A model generated the notes under the pieces. That model had not been told where the DNA came from. It saw only the letters and a program-made list of their open reading frames with translations, and searched no databases. Positions 4,031-39,092 of a stretch of DNA of 39,092 nt are shown here, one piece after another. Position numbers and translations under genes: made by a program. Origin of the DNA: an uncultured Enterorhabdus sp. (GTDB taxonomy: Bacteria; Actinomycetota; Coriobacteriia; Coriobacteriales; Eggerthellaceae); contig CANPHS010000007.1 in the NCBI GenBank assembly GCA_947573925.1, positions 1-39,092 of the forward strand. The letters run 5' to 3'. Within the stretch, counting starts at the first letter, position 1, and each line of letters starts with the position of its first letter.

Positions 4031-5377
4031 TTAGGCGGAAACCGGGTTGAAGGTGTTCCAGAACGGCCACACGATGGGGTCGGATTCCAGGGCTTTCGGC
4101 ATCTCGGGGCTCAGGCGGTCCTTGCGGATGGCCACCTCGTACACGAAGTTGTCGAACCACTCGTCGCTGGCCACGAAGTAGCCGTTGTTGCCGGTCTTCT
4201 GGCCGTGGTTCTCGGTGCCCCAGCTGTTCTCGATCTTCCACTTGGTGGGCTTGCCGTCCTTGATGTCCACACCGGCGATGGTCATGGCGTGGGTCGGCAG
4301 GCTCTCATGGGTGGCGAAGCGCTCGGCCTTGTCCATGGTGAACTTCACGCCGAACAGGGCTTCCAAATCGTACAGGTCGGAGGCCATGACGCCGGCGTTG
4401 CGGTCGCACCACTGCAGCACGTCGGAGCCGAACCAGATGGGCTCGCCGTCCTTCAGCGAATCGATGACGTAGCCCTTCAGCTCGTCCATGGGCACGTTCA
4501 GGTAGAGGTTGCGGCGCTCGGGAATCTGGTCGGAATCCTGAATGGCGTACAGGCGGCCGTAGGGGTTCGCGTCGCCCGGCACGTTGATGACGCCGATGTA
4601 GTCGTCCAGGTTGATGGGCACGTACTTCTTCAGGAATTCCAGCGGGGTGAGGCCGAGGTCCGCATGGTACTTGCCCTTGGCGTCGTTGTAGGTGAAGTCG
4701 AACTTCTGCACCGGCTCGCCGAAGCAGACGCACAGGATGCGGTACACCTCGTTCAGCATCTCTTCCTGGGTGGCCTTGGTGTCCTTCTGCTCCTGGGCCA
4801 TGGTGCGCAGCTTCAGGGCGTCCTGGCGCAGCAGGTGCGAGAGCACGGTGTTCACCTCGGCGGTGTCATTGGTGCAGTGGGTCTCAGCCTGAGCCTCGTG
4901 GGGCACCACGCCGTACTTCTTCACCAGGGCGCACACCATGTCCCAGTCGCCGCCGTCGGCCATGGGCGTGGTGAACAGCCAATCGACCTCGCGGTCGTCC
5001 AGCGGCTTGTCGGCCGTGGCCACCACGTGCTCCAAGAACCAGGCGGCGCGCTCCAGCTTGTTGAAGAACGCCAGGTAGGCCTGGGACAACTCGAAGGTGC
5101 CCTTAGGCAGGTCAAGCTCCTTCTCGATGTGGAAGCGCAGCACGTTCAGGCAGGCGAACATCCAGCAACGGCCCGACATCTTCTGGTTGGCCACGGCCTG
5201 GTCGTCCACGTCGATGGAGAACGCGAAGTTCGCGGGGCTCATGCGCTTGAGCACCTCCACGCTCTCCGCCGATTCCAGGATGCCGTTCTTGGTCACGGCA
5301 CGCTGGGCCACCTGCTGGGTCTCAGCCTTCTTGTAGGATTCGGCCATCTTGGCCAGTTGTTCCTTTGAGATTTCCAT
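4031..5377 (-). CDS. pepC: C1B family aminopeptidase (PepC/bleomycin hydrolase-like)
   Basis: 448 aa; NQKMSGRCWMFACLNVLR catalytic Cys motif, THAMTIAGVD His motif, KWKIENSWGTENHGQKTGNNGYF Asn motif. Confidence 0.93.
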   Translation of the reverse strand: MEISKEQLAKMAESYKKAETQQVAQRAVTKNGILESAESVEVLKRMSPANFAFSIDVDDQAVANQKMSGRCWMFACLNVLRFHIEKELDLPKGTFELSQAYLAFFNKLERAAWFLEHVVATADKPLDDREVDWLFTTPMADGGDWDMVCALVKKYGVVPHEAQAETHCTNDTAEVNTVLSHLLRQDALKLRTMAQEQKDTKATQEEMLNEVYRILCVCFGEPVQKFDFTYNDAKGKYHADLGLTPLEFLKKYVPINLDDYIGVINVPGDANPYGRLYAIQDSDQIPERRNLYLNVPMDELKGYVIDSLKDGEPIWFGSDVLQWCDRNAGVMASDLYDLEALFGVKFTMDKAERFATHESLPTHAMTIAGVDIKDGKPTKWKIENSWGTENHGQKTGNNGYFVASDEWFDNFVYEVAIRKDRLSPEMPKALESDPIVWPFWNTFNPVSA

Positions 5378-5514: not shown

Positions 5515-6873
5515 CTAGTCGAACAACGTCCAGGGCTGGGTGGGGCGGTCCTCCAGGTAGCCGTCCATCCACCGCCACAGCGGATGCTGGTCCATGAAGT
5601 CGCGGGCCACGAACTCCACGCCGTCGGCGCGGCCGTAGCGGCCCCACATCTTCATATGCTTCACGTCGTCGGGGCCGGCGGCCTTGGCGTCGCAGGAGCC
5701 GGCCGGGTAGAACGGGATGTTCCACACAGCGTCGGGATCGTCGGCGTAGTACTGCGGGTCCACGTCGTAGTGGGCGCAGATGTCGCGGCTCGACGGGCAG
5801 TTGTAGCCCAGGTACACGTCGTAGGTGTCGGCCAGCATCTTCTTCACGACCTCCAGGTCGATCTTGCCGTAGTACTGGTCGATGAGCTCCATCCAGCGCT
5901 GGCGACGGGCGCCGGTCTGCTGGCGCGGGTCGTTGAAGCCGTTGTCCTTGCACTCCAGGTTGCGGATGCGCGGATCGAACACGGCGTTGCAGCCGAAGAA
6001 GGTGCCGTCCATGGTGCGCTCCAGGCTCGTGAATTCCAGGCCCTGCTCGAAGCGGGCGATCTCGCCGGTGTTGTGGTCGGCGATGAGCCAGGCGTTGGCG
6101 TAGCCGCCGTTGTTCTGCTTATTCAAGCGCTCAACGAACTCGTCGATGGTGGCCGCGTACTGCACGGCGTCGCGGATGCGCACCCACTCGGGCATGCCGG
6201 CGTCGTCGTAGCGGTCGAAGCCGGCCAGCGTGGTCTCGGTGATGTTGAGGCCTGCGGCGGTCACGTAGAAGTCGGTCATGGAAGACAGCATGCACGGGGC
6301 CGAGGCCTGCATGATGAAGGCGTAGCCGTCGTCGGGCTCCACGCGCTTGCATACGTTGAAGTACTGGCCGCTCCAGAACTCGTCGAAGCTCTCGTGGCCG
6401 AGGTAGGGCTTGCCGTCCACGGTGGCCGAGCCCGTGGCCGCGATGGCGGAGCAGTGCTCCTTGCGGTGGGTCTTCATGAGCGGGCGGCTCATGATCTTCC
6501 CGGCGTTCTGGGGCCACCAGTAGCCGGTGATTTCCATCCAGTCGTTCCAGGCGATCATGTCGTCGGTGGTGGTGGGCACGCCGGCGGCGGTCAGGCCCTC
6601 GGCCATGCCGCGCAGCTCTTCCAGCCAGCGGGTGGGAATCATGTCGCGGTGCAGCTTCAGCGCCTGCTCGGCGAACCATTCGTAGGTCATGCCGAAGGTC
6701 TCAAGCGTCATGAACTTGTACACGCGCAGGGCGTCTTTGTACTCGTCGGCCAGAAGGTAGCCCTCCTGGAAGCCGCACTCGTAGGGGGTGCCCTTCACCT
6801 TGATGTGTTGCCAGCCGTTGATCTTCTGCAGCTGGGCGTGATCGATGATCGATTGCTGCTCGGGGGTGATCAT
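5515..6873 (-). CDS. C45-family autoproteolytic acyltransferase/hydrolase-like (phospholipase B/NAAA-like fold)
   Basis: 452 aa; candidate nucleophile Cys in EHCSAIAATGSATVDGKPYLGHESFDEF; overall pattern of the C45/Ntn hydrolase group. Confidence 0.7.
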   Translation of the reverse strand: MITPEQQSIIDHAQLQKINGWQHIKVKGTPYECGFQEGYLLADEYKDALRVYKFMTLETFGMTYEWFAEQALKLHRDMIPTRWLEELRGMAEGLTAAGVPTTTDDMIAWNDWMEITGYWWPQNAGKIMSRPLMKTHRKEHCSAIAATGSATVDGKPYLGHESFDEFWSGQYFNVCKRVEPDDGYAFIMQASAPCMLSSMTDFYVTAAGLNITETTLAGFDRYDDAGMPEWVRIRDAVQYAATIDEFVERLNKQNNGGYANAWLIADHNTGEIARFEQGLEFTSLERTMDGTFFGCNAVFDPRIRNLECKDNGFNDPRQQTGARRQRWMELIDQYYGKIDLEVVKKMLADTYDVYLGYNCPSSRDICAHYDVDPQYYADDPDAVWNIPFYPAGSCDAKAAGPDDVKHMKMWGRYGRADGVEFVARDFMDQHPLWRWMDGYLEDRPTQPWTLFD

Positions 6874-31986: not shown

Positions 31987-31996
31987 TGGCATTTCT

Positions 31997-32042
31997 TGGT
32001 CGCGGGGGGCGGATTTGAACCACCGACCTTCGGGTTATGAGG
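31997..32042 (-). other. 3' fragment of a tRNA-Met gene (att site)
   Basis: Minus strand CCTCATAACCCGAAGGTCGGTGGTTCAAATCCGCCCCCCGCGACCA: CAU anticodon, T-arm, acceptor 3' strand and CCA, but no matching 5' half. Confidence 0.88.
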
Positions 32043-32200
32043 ACGCGGAGGTCAAGTTCAGTCCAACCTAGCTCAAACCAAGAAATAGCAGCCGCCTCGC
32101 AAAACGCCTGATAGGGATCCTAGTTCTTATGGGGGCCTCAATGGGCCTTCGTTAATACTACCCGATTCAAGCCAGCTCGTGCTACTGGTTTTTAGTGAAT

Positions 32201-32253
32201 CCGCACACTTCCCGCACACTTGCGAGTACAGTCCGCACACTTCCCGCACACTT
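32201..32253. repeat. Four CCGCACACTT repeats (candidate integrase arm-type sites)
   Basis: Copies at 32201, 32212, 32233, 32244; spacing 11/21/11 bp. Confidence 0.85.
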
Positions 32254-32336: not shown

Positions 32337-33548
32337 ATGTTGAAGCTAGAAATTAAAGGCAAGGGAGAGATTATTGAGGTATCTCGTGGCGAGAAGTACC
32401 GCATTAAGTTCAAGTACCGCGACCCCAGCACAGGCAAATGGAAGTACGCCCCCCAGCGCACCATAAAGGGCAACAAGGCTAAGGCTAGGCGCGAGCTTGA
32501 GACCTATAAGGCAGAGTTCGAGCTGGAATGGAACGAGCCTAAATCCACCTCAACATTCGGCGACTACGCCCGCGACTGGCAGCAGACCCGCAGGGAGCTG
32601 GCGACTATCACGGTGCTGGCTCTCGACCGCGACGAGATCGAGATCGCGCGAATCAACGAATACCTGGGTCATATCACGATGACCGACCTTACCGCCGACG
32701 ATATTGAGGGATCTATCTTGGCCCTCAAGAAGAAGGGCCTTAGCGAGAGCGGTCTACATAAGTATTGGCAAAAGGTGAACCAAATCCTCAAGCACGCCGT
32801 GAAGCGCAGGGTCATCCCCTTCAACCCATGTGACCAGTTAGAGCCGATCAAGCGCCCCGACGCTAAGGAGAGGAAGGCGCTCGACTTCGAGCAGGCAGCG
32901 AAATTCGCCCTAGAATTGAAGAACGAGAACCGCGACGGAAAGATAGTAGCGGTATGGCTCGCCCTCGCTCTGGGACTGCGTAGAGGAGAGTGCTTAGGGT
33001 TGAGGTGGATGGATATTGATTTTGATGAGAGGATAGTTCATATCCGCAAGCAGTATGATGTTCACCACAACCTGCGCAAGCCGAAATGCGCATCGATTCG
33101 CGATCTTCCCGTTGACGAGGGCACCATTGCGTTCCTGCGTGAATGGCAGTCGATCATCCTGACCATGTTCCCCTTTACTGAGATTCCCGCCGAGTTCCCC
33201 GTGTGCTGCACCGAGATCGGAGAGTTCATCGACCCCACCTACTTCGATAAGTGGCGCCGCAAGTTCTTCATTAACCACGGCCTCGGTGAGTATACCAAGG
33301 TAGAGGAGTGGCGCGATAAGCGCGGTATCAAGCGCTACCGCTGCTCGGGCTACGAGGGCTATAACCTGCACGAGCTGAGGCACACCCAGGCAACCCTGCT
33401 CATCGGCCTCGGGGCCGATCTGAAGGCAGTCCAGGATATTATGGGACATTCTTCAATGCAGATGACGATGCAGTACACCCACTCCATCACCGCGAACCAG
33501 CGCAAGGCCACCAGCGCATTCGACCAGGCGATTCTACAGGCTCACTAG
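32337..33548 (+). CDS. int: Tyrosine site-specific recombinase (phage/ICE-type integrase)
   Basis: 403 aa; ALGLRRGECLGLRW, HELRHTQATLLIGLGADLKAVQDIMGHSSMQMTMQYTH catalytic R...HxxR...Y. Confidence 0.96.
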   Translation: MLKLEIKGKGEIIEVSRGEKYRIKFKYRDPSTGKWKYAPQRTIKGNKAKARRELETYKAEFELEWNEPKSTSTFGDYARDWQQTRRELATITVLALDRDEIEIARINEYLGHITMTDLTADDIEGSILALKKKGLSESGLHKYWQKVNQILKHAVKRRVIPFNPCDQLEPIKRPDAKERKALDFEQAAKFALELKNENRDGKIVAVWLALALGLRRGECLGLRWMDIDFDERIVHIRKQYDVHHNLRKPKCASIRDLPVDEGTIAFLREWQSIILTMFPFTEIPAEFPVCCTEIGEFIDPTYFDKWRRKFFINHGLGEYTKVEEWRDKRGIKRYRCSGYEGYNLHELRHTQATLLIGLGADLKAVQDIMGHSSMQMTMQYTHSITANQRKATSAFDQAILQAH

Positions 33549-34292: not shown

Positions 34293-34778
34293 ATGTCAGA
34301 TCAGATTTTTTCAACCGACACCCCGCAAACCAGCGCCGCGCCCTCGCTAGTGGAGCAATACGCCCCTACCGACGAGGAAGGTAGGCCGATCATAATCGTT
34401 GACGGGAAGATCACCGCCACCAACCTCGTCGAGCCGAACACCTACCACTGCCTCAGCGCGTGGGTCGAGGGCGAGCTGCGCGGTGGAGGCCACTTCAGCG
34501 GCTTCGTCACCTCCCGCAACCCCGAGATCAACATCTTCTCGGTTTCCGACCCGAATCCCATTGACCCGTCCCTAGTCGACGGCAAGAAATGGCAGGGCAC
34601 GGCCTTCCTCTACGAGGACAAGGGCCTCAAGGGCACGGTCAAACGCTTCAAGACCCTCATCTTCGACATCGAGAGCGGCCCTGTGACGACCTCTCCCCAC
34701 AAGATCGACAGCGGCTACGCCACCAACCCGCTCATGTCGGTACGGGCATCGAGCGCTCCTGCGGGTGAGGCTCAGTAG
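34293..34778 (+). CDS. Hypothetical element protein
   Basis: 161 aa, SD AAGGAG, closely spaced downstream of 33960-34283. Confidence 0.72.
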   Translation: MSDQIFSTDTPQTSAAPSLVEQYAPTDEEGRPIIIVDGKITATNLVEPNTYHCLSAWVEGELRGGGHFSGFVTSRNPEINIFSVSDPNPIDPSLVDGKKWQGTAFLYEDKGLKGTVKRFKTLIFDIESGPVTTSPHKIDSGYATNPLMSVRASSAPAGEAQ

Positions 34779-34810
34779 GCTATAGGAGGTTCCTGAGCAT
34801 GGCTGGGACT

Positions 34811-34841
34811 AAGGGCGAGCGACACTCGCCCTTTCTTTTTT
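34811..34841 (+). terminator. Rho-independent terminator
   Basis: AAGGGCGAG-CGACA-CTCGCCCTT followed by TCTTTTTT. Confidence 0.88.
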
Positions 34842-34870
34842 GGGGTCGATGCTGACTGGGCGTATTTTCA

Positions 34871-35093
34871 GGGGTTAAGCCTCTTTTTGCTCCTTTGCGC
34901 GCGAAACCGTTGGCCTTGTAGAAAACGGTTTCGCAAACGAAACACCTGGTAAATCCTCAAAAATCTTCTTCTCGTCATCATCCCGAAATCCGCCTCTACC
35001 AGCCTCTTCAAACGAGGCTTAACCCGAGGCTTAAGCCAAGGCTTAACCCCAGGCTTGACCCCTTAAGCCTCGTTTTCAGGCCCCTTAAGCCTC
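34871..35093. other. Candidate replication origin: hairpin plus iterons
   Basis: GCGAAACCGTT/AACGGTTTCGC hairpin (34901-34934); AGGCTTAACCCC-type units in tandem 35014-35062, inverted copies at 34871-34883, 35063-35072 and 35085-35093. Confidence 0.75.
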
Positions 35094-35346
35094 ATTCAGT
35101 GGTGGTCAGTAGTGCTCGCTAACGCTCGCAGCCATCGCTCCCCCGCCTACGCCCCCAGGCTCCTGTGCCTCCTGCCTTCGGCACGGCACATACGCCCCAG
35201 GGCTACGGCGCTCCGCGATGGCCTATACCTATGTCCATTCATGCATAGGTGAGGAGCAGAGCATATATCCAGGTCAGCGTGGAATTAGTGATAACTAAAA
35301 CTGAATTAAGCTCAGTTAGGACATACAGCGAATAAGGAGGATTCAG

Positions 35347-37260
35347 ATGGCTAACACCTACAAGAACGTGAACGGCAGCTCATACCTGAAGCCAGAGTTC
35401 TGGAAGGCCCAGAGCGAGGAAGACCAGGAGGTACTCAATGAGCTGGTTGTTAGGGCGTGCGACCCCAGTATCCCCGATGCCGAGGCAGTGAAGGGTCTGG
35501 CTGACTTCATCGTGGCCCAGGCTGAGGCGGATGGAGTGGAGTTCGATTGCGCCTATTTTGCCCGCCACTTCAAGGACGAGCCAGGGGCAGCGGACATCAC
35601 CGACCCAGCCACGGGCAAGAAGTACCCTCACCTCCACTTCGTCCTGCACATAGGAGGCGAGAGCGAGGGATGCTCATGGCCCCAGTGGGAGCGCTATATA
35701 GGCATCTCGCGCACCCTCATCGAGAAGCTGAAGAAGGGCAACTCAGAGCAGCAGAAAGACAACGTCATCAGCTACCTCACCCATATCAAGTACCCCGAAA
35801 AGACCCAGTACGGCCCCGAGATCGTTTATACCGCCAGGGGTCGTGATTACATGGAGGTCTACTCCCAGCGTTATTCCGCTTGGATAGTAGGCCGCACTGT
35901 CATCGCGCAGACCAACGCCACCTCGAAGGAGCGCAAGGCAATGGTCATCGACCAGATCAACCACGATCAGCTCTCTTACCAGGAGCTCATTTCAACGGAT
36001 GAAGGGCGCTTGCTCTATTCGAAGTGCAAGAAGGATATTGATAACCTCTACGCCACCGTCGCTGAATCCAAGCGCTTGAGGAAGTTGGAGTCCTATACCG
36101 ATCACCCTTTCGTGCGCACCAATATCTACTTCTCTGGCGCTAGCGGCCACGGGAAGACCTGGACGGCCAATCAGCTCGCTCAGCGTATCGTCGAGTACGT
36201 GAGAGCGGCGACGGGAGAGGAGTGGACTATCTTCGACCCAGCCGACGGCCCCAATGGCAACGAGGACTACGCGGGTCAGGAGATCATCGTCTTCGACGAT
36301 TTGAAGTCCTCCGATATGACGTGGGAGAAGATGAAGCGCTTCTTCGACCCTTTCAAGCCGATCAGCTCTTTCGGCGCGAGATACAAGAACTCCCAGTACT
36401 GCGCCAGGGTCAACATCATCACGAACACGGCCAACATCTATGAATACTTTTATGATAACCGCACCCGCGCCCCCCGCGAGCATATCGACCAGGGCCTGAG
36501 GAGAATCGACTTCTGCGTTGAAACTTATAATGTTGCCGCCGATGCCGATACCGAAAGCCTCGTCAACGTAGAGCCTACCAACGCCACCATGCGCCTCTCT
36601 CTGAAGACGCTCCATCGCTTCTCACGCCTCGACCCCATGCACCTGAAGATCGCCAATCCCCGCGACTACGGTAAGGGCGACTACAAGGTGCACTACGTTC
36701 ATCGCGTACCCTCGTCCCTGCCCACCTGGCTGCGCCCCGATGATGCCATCGAACTCATATTGGAAAAGGTAATGGAGAACAACGGCATCCCCTACCAGCG
36801 CTCCCCTCAGACCGCCCAAAACATTAGCGATGCCCTCATACTCGACGAGCAGTACGACCCCCGCCGCGAGTGCAGCATCGTCGAGGTAGGCCGCGCCAGC
36901 GAGGTCGGCGCTCTTAAAAGTGACGAGCAGGGCCAGGAGCAGAGGCCCGCCATCAAGCAGGTGTACCTCGCCCCCGACTGCTTCTATCTGGCTGGCTTCT
37001 ACGATAAGTACTCGCTTGACCTGCCGCCCTTTGATGACTGTGATGAGTACTCCAAGATGCGCCCCCTGTTCGACCTCTATGGTTTGCGCGACTACCTGAA
37101 CGAGCTCATCCAGCAGGACGAGGCAGACTACAAGGCCCTGATAGACGACGAGCCAGAGCGCATTGATCTCGGAGGCAACATATTCAACATGCGCGCCGAA
37201 GACCTCCCGTTTGAGCGCCGCCAGTATATCCCAATCCGAATGGAAAAAAGAAAGAGGTAA
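35347..37260 (+). CDS. rep: Replication initiator: HUH/Rep_2-like endonuclease plus SF3-helicase-like domain (CRESS/pCRESS-type Rep)
   Basis: YPHLHFVLHIGG (HUH), VISYLTHIKYPEKTQY (candidate catalytic Tyr), IYFSGASGHGKTWTANQLA (Walker A), EIIVFDDLKSSDM (Walker B), RVNIITNTANIYEYF (motif C); SD AAGGAGG. Confidence 0.85.
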   Translation: MANTYKNVNGSSYLKPEFWKAQSEEDQEVLNELVVRACDPSIPDAEAVKGLADFIVAQAEADGVEFDCAYFARHFKDEPGAADITDPATGKKYPHLHFVLHIGGESEGCSWPQWERYIGISRTLIEKLKKGNSEQQKDNVISYLTHIKYPEKTQYGPEIVYTARGRDYMEVYSQRYSAWIVGRTVIAQTNATSKERKAMVIDQINHDQLSYQELISTDEGRLLYSKCKKDIDNLYATVAESKRLRKLESYTDHPFVRTNIYFSGASGHGKTWTANQLAQRIVEYVRAATGEEWTIFDPADGPNGNEDYAGQEIIVFDDLKSSDMTWEKMKRFFDPFKPISSFGARYKNSQYCARVNIITNTANIYEYFYDNRTRAPREHIDQGLRRIDFCVETYNVAADADTESLVNVEPTNATMRLSLKTLHRFSRLDPMHLKIANPRDYGKGDYKVHYVHRVPSSLPTWLRPDDAIELILEKVMENNGIPYQRSPQTAQNISDALILDEQYDPRRECSIVEVGRASEVGALKSDEQGQEQRPAIKQVYLAPDCFYLAGFYDKYSLDLPPFDDCDEYSKMRPLFDLYGLRDYLNELIQQDEADYKALIDDEPERIDLGGNIFNMRAEDLPFERRQYIPIRMEKRKR

Positions 37261-37265
37261 CAACC

Positions 37266-37949
37266 ATGGCTAACATTCAACCCTTATCCGAAGTGGAACC
37301 GTTCGACTATTTTGCTCAGGAAGAAGACGAGAATATCCTCGATGACTTCCCGCCCCAGCCAGGCGATGAGAAGATCGACATTAGTACCTACATTGAGATA
37401 GGCCGCGCCTACAACCAAGAGCGCCAGCGCACGGGCAACGCAGATCTGGACTTCAATGAGTTTAAGGCCCAGTACCTTCGAGAGAATGTCAGCGAGTTCT
37501 CGGGCACTCATACCACCACGGGGAAGACCGATCTCGACTCCGACTCCCTCTTTTATGAGATCGATGACTTCTTTTCCGAGGGCGTGCATCAGACCTACGA
37601 TGCCAGCGGTCGCAGAGTCCTCGATGCTGGCGAGCCTGAAGACGATTTCCTCGCCTACCAGCGCTCTGTGATGGAGTCCGATGACGAGGAGTGGAGGAGA
37701 AGGTACCTTTCAATGCAAGCCGAGATGGCTGAGCAGAGAGAGCGCGTGAACCGCCGTCGGATGCACGGTAATCCATTCCTTCATGAGGAGAGAGCGCTGA
37801 ACATCGACCTCGACCGAGAATTGATGAAGCAGAATGCCCGCATGGACGAGCTGCGCCAGTACGACGAGGCCGCTGATTATTTTGATCGTGAGCCTGAGTT
37901 CAACGAGACCGAGTACATGAGAGAACGGGAGGATAGTTACCCCTGGTGA
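37266..37949 (+). CDS. Acidic hypothetical protein co-transcribed with Rep
   Basis: 227 aa, 5 nt after the rep stop; Asp/Glu-rich, C-terminal charged helical region. Confidence 0.72.
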   Translation: MANIQPLSEVEPFDYFAQEEDENILDDFPPQPGDEKIDISTYIEIGRAYNQERQRTGNADLDFNEFKAQYLRENVSEFSGTHTTTGKTDLDSDSLFYEIDDFFSEGVHQTYDASGRRVLDAGEPEDDFLAYQRSVMESDDEEWRRRYLSMQAEMAEQRERVNRRRMHGNPFLHEERALNIDLDRELMKQNARMDELRQYDEAADYFDREPEFNETEYMREREDSYPW

Positions 37950-38017: not shown

Positions 38018-38047
38018 TGTAATGTGAAGCACAACGAAAGGTTAATC

Positions 38048-39092
38048 ATGAACGAACTAACAGTACGCGAAAAGAAAAAGAGTGCGGGAATATTGGCGAT
38101 AGTGCTGTGCGCCCTGGCTGTGGTCTGCACGGGAACCCTCGCCTATTTCACTGCGAAGGACACCGTGATCAACGATTTCAGCATAGCCGATGGCGTGAAG
38201 GTGAAGGTAGTGGAGCCTAACTGGAATCCTGATGAGGCGGTGAACCTCCTGCCCACCCAGACGGTTCCGAAAGACCCAGCGGTGCAGAACCTCAGCGAGA
38301 TTCCTGTCTACGTCACTGCTGAAGTGACCGTTCCCACTAAGGACATAATGACAGCCGAGCTTGACGGCACGCCGAAACCCCAGCAGGTGACTGATCTCTT
38401 TAGCTACGAAGTCAATGACAAGTGGACACTCGATGACGTCATTACAGGCGATGGCACGGTGACTTACCGCTACACCTACACCGAGCCATTGGAGCCAGGC
38501 GACACCACCCAGAGCATCTTCGACTCCGTGACCGTCTGCAACTACGTGAACGGCCAGCTCACCCCCGATGAGCTACACCAGCAGGTAATCGTCGTGGGCT
38601 ACGGCATCCAGACCGAGGGCATCGAGGCCCCTGAGGACGCTGCTGCAATCCTCTTCGCGCAGACCACGCCCAAGGTCACTTACGCCGTGTTCGCGGCCTC
38701 TGACGGCTCCCTCGACTTCTATAAGCGCACCTCCATGCCCGAGTCGGGGAACGGCATCGAGGTCTATCCGATAGACGAGGAGAACTGCGACTACACCGAC
38801 GGCACGGCACCCTGGAATGCGCACACGCGCGAGATCAAGAGCATCACAGTGGTCGATGACGGCATCAGCCCGACCTCGATGGGAGAATGGTTCGCTGGCT
38901 GCGAGAACTGCCTGACCATTGACGTTACGAAGCTGGACGTCGAGAGGGTGCGCACCTTCTGGGCCACCTTCGCGGCGTGCGCCTCCGTGGAGACCCTAGA
39001 CCTCTCCACCTGGAACGTTCCCGCTGATGTGGAGACCACCAACTATATGTTCTTCGAGATGCGCGATGTGGTGACAATCTACGCCAACGACT
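38048..39092 (+). CDS. Surface/secreted protein with TasA/camelysin-like N-terminus and BspA-like C-terminal part (truncated by window end)
   Basis: Read manually: MNELTVREKKKSAGILAIVLCALAVVCTGTLAYFTAKDTVINDFSIADGVKVKVVEPNW...; later GEWFAGCENCLTIDVTKLDVERVRTFWATFAACASVETLDLSTWNVPADVETTNYMFFEM; open to the last base, absent from the ORF track. Confidence 0.8.
   Translation, partial: MNELTVREKKKSAGILAIVLCALAVVCTGTLAYFTAKDTVINDFSIADGVKVKVVEPNWNPDEAVNLLPTQTVPKDPAVQNLSEIPVYVTAEVTVPTKDIMTAELDGTPKPQQVTDLFSYEVNDKWTLDDVITGDGTVTYRYTYTEPLEPGDTTQSIFDSVTVCNYVNGQLTPDELHQQVIVVGYGIQTEGIEAPEDAAAILFAQTTPKVTYAVFAASDGSLDFYKRTSMPESGNGIEVYPIDEENCDYTDGTAPWNAHTREIKSITVVDDGISPTSMGEWFAGCENCLTIDVTKLDVERVRTFWATFAACASVETLDLSTWNVPADVETTNYMFFEMRDVVTIYAND

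Follow-up and report, generated by a model that had tools for sequence, protein, structure and literature searches.

The window analysed here is a single stretch of 39,092 nucleotides (contig CANPHS010000007.1) from an uncultured Enterorhabdus sp., and it carries part of an element integrated at a tRNA gene. The integrase end of the element is marked by an att repeat that corresponds to the 3' portion of tRNA-Met (31992-32041, minus strand); contig C25 of the same genome, which holds a complete tRNA-Met at 4385-4462, repeats this stretch at 4380-4429 with 2 mismatches. Inward from the repeat, all on the plus strand, lie a tyrosine integrase gene (32337-33548; PF00589, E 9.7e-20; PF13102, E 9e-7), the conserved orf161 (34293-34778), rep (35347-37260), the conserved orf227 (37266-37949), and a gene for a secreted or surface protein with DUF285 repeats (38024-39091; PF03382, E 1.3e-4, below the cut-off), which runs off the contig. 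The product of orf161 has no Pfam or PHROG match and is 42% identical to that of an equally placed gene in a sister element of Adlercreutzia caecimuris B7 (locus L005), and orf227 is 95% identical to its counterpart there. The surface protein, which has a TasA/camelysin-like start and 89% identity to L005 11666-13480, is probably cargo.

Contig C25 carries an FtsK-type gene alongside the repeat of the tRNA-Met end, and we infer that the element, split over two unjoined contigs, has its far end there. The genes scanned included no recognisable viral structural or capsid gene; they do not cover the middle part of the element, which lies off the contig. In addition, TCCGCACACTTCCCGCACACTT occurs beside the integrase gene (32192-32221 and 32232-32253) and again near the element end on C25 (L087 4300-4329), and these repeats are possibly arm-binding sites of the integrase.

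The product of rep is a protein of 637 aa in which, by Pfam, profile match, and alignment, an HUH nuclease is fused to an SF3 helicase. Its nuclease motifs are the HUH pair H95-L-H97 and motif III Y143-L-T-H146 (YLTH); the helicase has a P-loop at 263-271 and a Walker B motif, IIVFDD, at 313-318. PF00910 was matched above the cut-off (E 4e-6) and PF01719, the origin-binding domain, below it (E 0.0065), the latter reaching E 0.01 or better in seven of nine aligned Reps. Across these nine the H/H/Y/H residues are invariant, the P-loop and Walker B aspartates are also kept, and a profile made from them matches solved Rep helicase domains at E 1.7e-10. A tblastn search with Rep found plasmid Reps of Lactococcus and phytoplasma. 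No segment of the nine-sequence profile was conserved enough for a collection-wide scan, and the matches of a phylum-wide profile search outside Coriobacteriia were confined to short segments around the P-loop in other ATPases. Protein scans of viral contigs and a DNA-pattern scan found no relative, and the phage collection gave no match. An AlphaFold2 model of Rep built from two sequences had a mean pLDDT of 33.8 and was discarded.

Hairpin and iterons before rep

Between orf161 and rep lies an intergenic gap of 568 bp (34779-35346), which holds a hairpin, four tandem units, and three inverted copies of the same repeat. Close to orf161 is its intrinsic terminator (34811-34840, plus strand), a 9-bp stem (34811-34833) followed by TCTTTTTT. 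The putative nic hairpin (34901-34934, plus strand) has 11-bp arms, GCGAAACCGTT at 34901-34911 and AACGGTTTCGC at 34924-34934, around the loop GGCCTTGTAGAA with its conserved GGNCTTGT core; in relatives the loop is kept and the stem has covaried. Downstream of it stands the putative bind locus (35014-35061, plus strand; consensus NAGGCTTAACCC), in which GAGGCTTAACCC (35014-35025), GAGGCTTAAGCC (35026-35037), AAGGCTTAACCC (35038-35049), and CAGGCTTGACCC (35050-35061) follow one another as direct units of 12 bp with no spacers between. Repeat scans also located the inverted copies on the minus strand: GGGGTTAAGCCTC (34871-34883) upstream of the hairpin, with a counterpart at 5520-5533 of L005, and CTTAAGCCTC at both 35062-35071 and 35084-35093. 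Next to rep lies its leader (35097-35346, plus strand; fold z -2.25), possibly an sso, a promoter, or a control region. A scan for the sigma-70 consensus upstream of rep gave no match, and Rfam matches were only at chance level and below the cut-off.

The first-pass annotation had proposed an origin here, from an 11-bp hairpin, four consecutive units of 12-13 bp, inverted copies behind these and one before the hairpin, and a noncoding placement ahead of rep. The hairpin was recovered with the same arms and loop, as were all three inverted copies, and the placement holds, since rep begins at 35347 and everything from orf161 to that point is intergenic. The four units are present and abut as described; their length needs correcting to exactly 12 bp.

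These structures are rare in shuffled sequence. Of 1000 dinucleotide shuffles of the gap, 3 gave a perfect hairpin with arms of 11 bp; of 300, none gave a 9-mer with seven copies (both strands, at most one mismatch), the shuffle maximum being five. Allowing one mismatch, GAGGCTTAAC has six matches in the 39 kb, every one within the array, against 1.2 expected. When the region is folded as a single DNA strand, its stability exceeds that of shuffles by 4.45 sd, and the outer iterons pair as a larger stem that carries the hairpin at its tip.

The sister element in Adlercreutzia caecimuris

The A. caecimuris B7 element is whole on one contig and spans ~15.0 kb between 23-bp repeats at tRNA-Ser. 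An FtsK_SpoIIIE protein (PF01580, E 5e-11) is encoded between these att repeats. Compared with those of the window's element, its FtsK (99%), orf227, and surface protein are highly similar, and its Rep (65%), orf161, and integrase (32%) much less so. With the surface protein 89% identical but the integrase only 32%, the element is a mosaic. The FtsK_SpoIIIE genes themselves lie at L087 2534-3340 and L086 16490-17296, and their 99% identity between the elements of two species points to recent exchange of this module.

The origin gap has the same layout in both elements. In A. caecimuris, GAGGTTTTGGCC is repeated four times in tandem (spacing 12, 11, 12) at the same place, with inverted copies on either side, and the hairpin reads CGGGACGGT-GGTCTTGTCGATA-ACCGTCCCG. 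Between the window and A. caecimuris the iterons have shifted in unison from GAGGCTTAACCC to GAGGTTTTGGCC, as would be expected of binding sites for one protein. Both stem arms of the hairpin have also changed around a nearly constant loop (GGYCTTGTMGA). Directly beside the changed iterons, the 250 bp adjoining rep keep an identity of ~0.8-0.9. Stem, loop, and iterons have been maintained while changing in concert from one species to the other, which points to selection on the site.

Within the nuclease domain of Rep, the deepest dip in identity lies immediately past the HUH strand (window 35649-35677), ahead of the stretch that, judged by its position, might match the recognition helix of RepB (PMC9943647). 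As a pair, the two Adlercreutzia elements are well suited to the study of joint change in a Rep and the repeats that it would bind.

The loop motif in wider relatives

A two-row Rep profile yielded seven further nuclease-helicase Reps of Coriobacteriia, and a GGGCTTGT-type motif (GGGCTTGTC or TGGCTTGTC) precedes the gene in all seven of these first-found distant HUH+SF3 Reps; in four, it sits in a perfect stem of 10-12 bp. At L017, L019, and L023, which belong to one genus, the loop motif is present and the stem is either a 4-bp perfect one or not clear. A larger profile, run after the hairpin prediction had been made, added three more nuclease-helicase Reps, and each is preceded by a hairpin with arms of 11-14 bp. 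None of four control Reps (three PF01719-type without helicase and one of another type) has such a hairpin.

The motif extends beyond Coriobacteriia. In the Lactococcus plasmid pQA504, GCGGTTTGGT-TGGGCTTGTCGACT-ACCAAACCGC stands 262 bp before rep, and the hairpin also precedes rep in the free circular plasmids pOYNIM, p09PLY-1, pPABN1, and the aster yellows plasmid; these four phytoplasma plasmids have GGCTTGT loops on stems of 12-14 bp. Relatives with the loop include free circular plasmids of only 3-4 kb. Loops that vary by one base were seen in S. haemolyticus p4 (GGGCTCGT), pCPa (GGGCTGTC), and pRGI00478 (GGGCCTGTC). The family consensus, GGGCTTGTC, is thus common to elements and plasmids of three bacterial phyla.

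A count over both strands of 295 kb gave 16 hairpins whose loop contains CTTGT and whose arms reach 9 bp or more; 14 are these origins, all on the rep-sense strand. Over 12 hairpins, each of the nine innermost stem positions is filled by three or all four Watson-Crick pair types; part of this comparison was selected by arm complementarity, so that perfect pairing is partly a product of the selection. The conservation of the loop and the control counts are independent of that choice. Since the arms were found by complementarity, what the comparison shows is that the stem is free in sequence and the loop fixed, rather than, independently, that the arms pair.

The iterons are less uniform. Private 9-mer clusters between hairpin and rep are significant in L017, L023, and L047 and weaker in L018, L019, and L021; by the same simple 9-mer test, L020, L022, L024, L048, L050, and L081 have no significant cluster. 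The iteron part is therefore not universal, and we regard the loop as the constant part of the site and the iterons as the variable part.

Three side observations concern these relatives. The sequence AACGAAACACCTGGTAAATCC (window 34938-34958; L005 about 5581-5600) resembles the box AACGAAACCGCAGGTCAGACC of the distant relative L023, and in the hairpin-to-rep interval of the other relatives (L017-L023) there are one or two copies of CCGCAGGTCA or TTTACCTGCGG. At L021 (G341:C1:176045-177935), rep is split over two frames and the GGGCTTGTC hairpin is intact, which probably reflects a decaying element or a sequencing error. Lastly, six of nine genomes of the genus encode a PF01719 Rep in a short frame of 193-301 aa (L093 at G000:C157:1948-2307, L092, and L094-L097), probably without an SF3 helicase; no GGGCTTGT hairpin lies nearby, and these form a second rolling-circle replicon type.

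Proposed function and known systems

We consider it very probable, on the evidence of sequence comparison, that an integrative, plasmid-like element has its double-strand (leading-strand) origin at this site and, once excised, replicates by the rolling-circle mode. The best reading is that it belongs with the YLxH (pCRESS4-8) Rep group and would be nicked in the hairpin loop by a Rep seated on the iterons. The origin proposed in the first-pass annotation is thus the best-supported interpretation, given the same anatomy in the sister element and the same loop motif and position in three phyla. The putative nick motif, the CRESS-like HUH+SF3 Rep, and a role in mobilization or as an oriT that the site may also have go beyond it.

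In the mechanism we propose, Rep would bind the 12-bp iterons of the bind locus by way of its HUH/origin-binding domain, and the hairpin some 90-100 bp upstream would be extruded. Rep would then cut the plus strand within the loop GGCCTTGTAGAA (family consensus GGGCTTGTC), Tyr143 staying linked to the 5' end and a 3'-OH being left. From there synthesis would presumably run rightwards through the iterons and rep, with the fused SF3 helicase unwinding the DNA.

Could the hairpin instead terminate or attenuate transcription, with the repeats as operators for Rep or another repressor of rep? A noncoding region before rep with short symmetric repeats would suit such a role, and origin iterons often double as autoregulation sites. 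However, the hairpin has no T-run on the rep strand, the upstream gene has a terminator of its own in the separate stem at 34811-34833, and in a terminator one would not expect a loop conserved across phyla on a changing stem. We therefore rejected the terminator and operator readings of the hairpin, and regard this account of the site as very unlikely. It is equally hard to believe that the element has decayed and that the site is a functionless remnant. The element is indeed chromosomally integrated, its draft contig breaks off before the element does, and the relative L021 has its broken rep; yet in the window rep is intact over 637 codons, and the coordinated change of stem, loop, and iterons between two species points to selection.

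A more serious alternative, although still an improbable one, is that the site is mainly an oriT, with Rep as a relaxase that nicks the loop, an FtsK/TcpA-type coupling protein, and vegetative replication secondary or absent. Streptococcal IMEs with a tyrosine integrase and a PF01719+PF00910 protein, often together with TcpA, are described as mobilizable (PMC5357655), and an FtsK_SpoIIIE gene lies between the att repeats of A. caecimuris, its 99% identical relative being on C25, the presumed other end of the window's element. The same hairpin, however, precedes rep in small plasmids for which hardly any other gene is annotated, and pQA504, where it also occurs, has a MOBP relaxase of its own. 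Moreover, replication and transfer are compatible, as MobT of ICEBs1 does both (PMC5357655). We therefore keep to a replication origin, to which the tRNA-directed integrase and the FtsK-type gene may add a role in transfer.

More broadly, and only tentatively, the GGGCTTGTC hairpin loop may be a general nick site for nuclease-helicase Reps of the YLxH type across Actinomycetota, Bacillota, and Mycoplasmatota, unlike the pMV158 and CRESS-virus sites; in integrative elements it would serve both replication and FtsK/TcpA-assisted transfer, and iterons and Rep would change specificity together. This generality rests on roughly 20 loci examined. The consensus provides a concrete putative cutting site, which should be cuttable in the test tube as a short oligonucleotide, and a marker with which to find and delimit such elements.

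Among known systems, the AICEs were considered and set aside, as they are defined by a RepSA, RepAM, or Prim-Pol replication protein and the window's Rep is of the HUH(YLxH)+SF3 type; a survey by those definitions lists none in Coriobacteridae (PMC3218068). The gene set also fits class 4 of the streptococcal IMEs (Rel_PF01719-PF00910; Coluzzi et al. 2017, PMC5357655), in that it combines a tyrosine integrase with a PF01719+PF00910-type protein and an FtsK/TcpA-like gene, the last on another contig of the same genome for the window and within the att repeats for its sister, and this makes use as a transfer origin a live possibility. The window's element, known here from its genes, differs in belonging to Coriobacteriia, in its tRNA target, in its surface-protein cargo, and in its gene order.

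The origin itself is most readily compared with that of pMV158, where Rep binds tandem repeats 84 bp from the nic hairpin and cuts in its loop (PMC9943647). As in pMV158 and pE194, a nick hairpin is followed ~84-95 bp downstream by tandem direct repeats of 11-12 bp and then by the rep region, the window's array starting about 95 bp from CTTGT against 84 bp in pMV158, and the nuclease domains are related (YLxH). In contrast, the cut site of the pMV158 family, TACTAC(C)G/A (PMC3541243), is not present in the window in its form TACTACGAC, the loop GGCCTTGTAGAA being GGGCTTGTC-like; the window's iterons are also inverted, on both sides; no copG was recognised upstream; and the short pMV158 Rep lacks a helicase, whereas the window's has 637 aa with SF3. 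The circo-, gemini-, and nanoviruses among the CRESS-DNA viruses similarly share a conserved-loop hairpin near rep, iterons, and an HUH+SF3 Rep, but their nonanucleotide TAGTATTAC is absent from the window. With both of these sites missing, the origin is of neither type, though it would operate in a similar way.

The closest fit is to the pCRESS description. In Kazlauskas et al. 2019 (PMC6668415), YLxH is given as the signature of pCRESS4-8, and bacterial Reps of this kind are positioned close to the root of the CRESS-DNA virus replication proteins. The window's Rep, an HUH nuclease with a single-Tyr YLxH motif III and a fused SF3 helicase, and its rep gene, carried on a site-specifically integrated element with a tyrosine integrase and a tRNA-Met att repeat, fit this supergroup (4-8 as a whole) by sequence features. 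No origin or nick sequence for the YLxH group appears in the searched passages from two papers on pCRESS or in the other open-licence papers found, and a search of the literature for the loop letters gave no relevant match among the matches listed. The Rep type and the hairpin/iteron layout were already known; what appears to be new, relative to those texts, is a loop consensus for YLxH Reps, and with it a point of comparison between the pMV158 origin and the origins of viruses.
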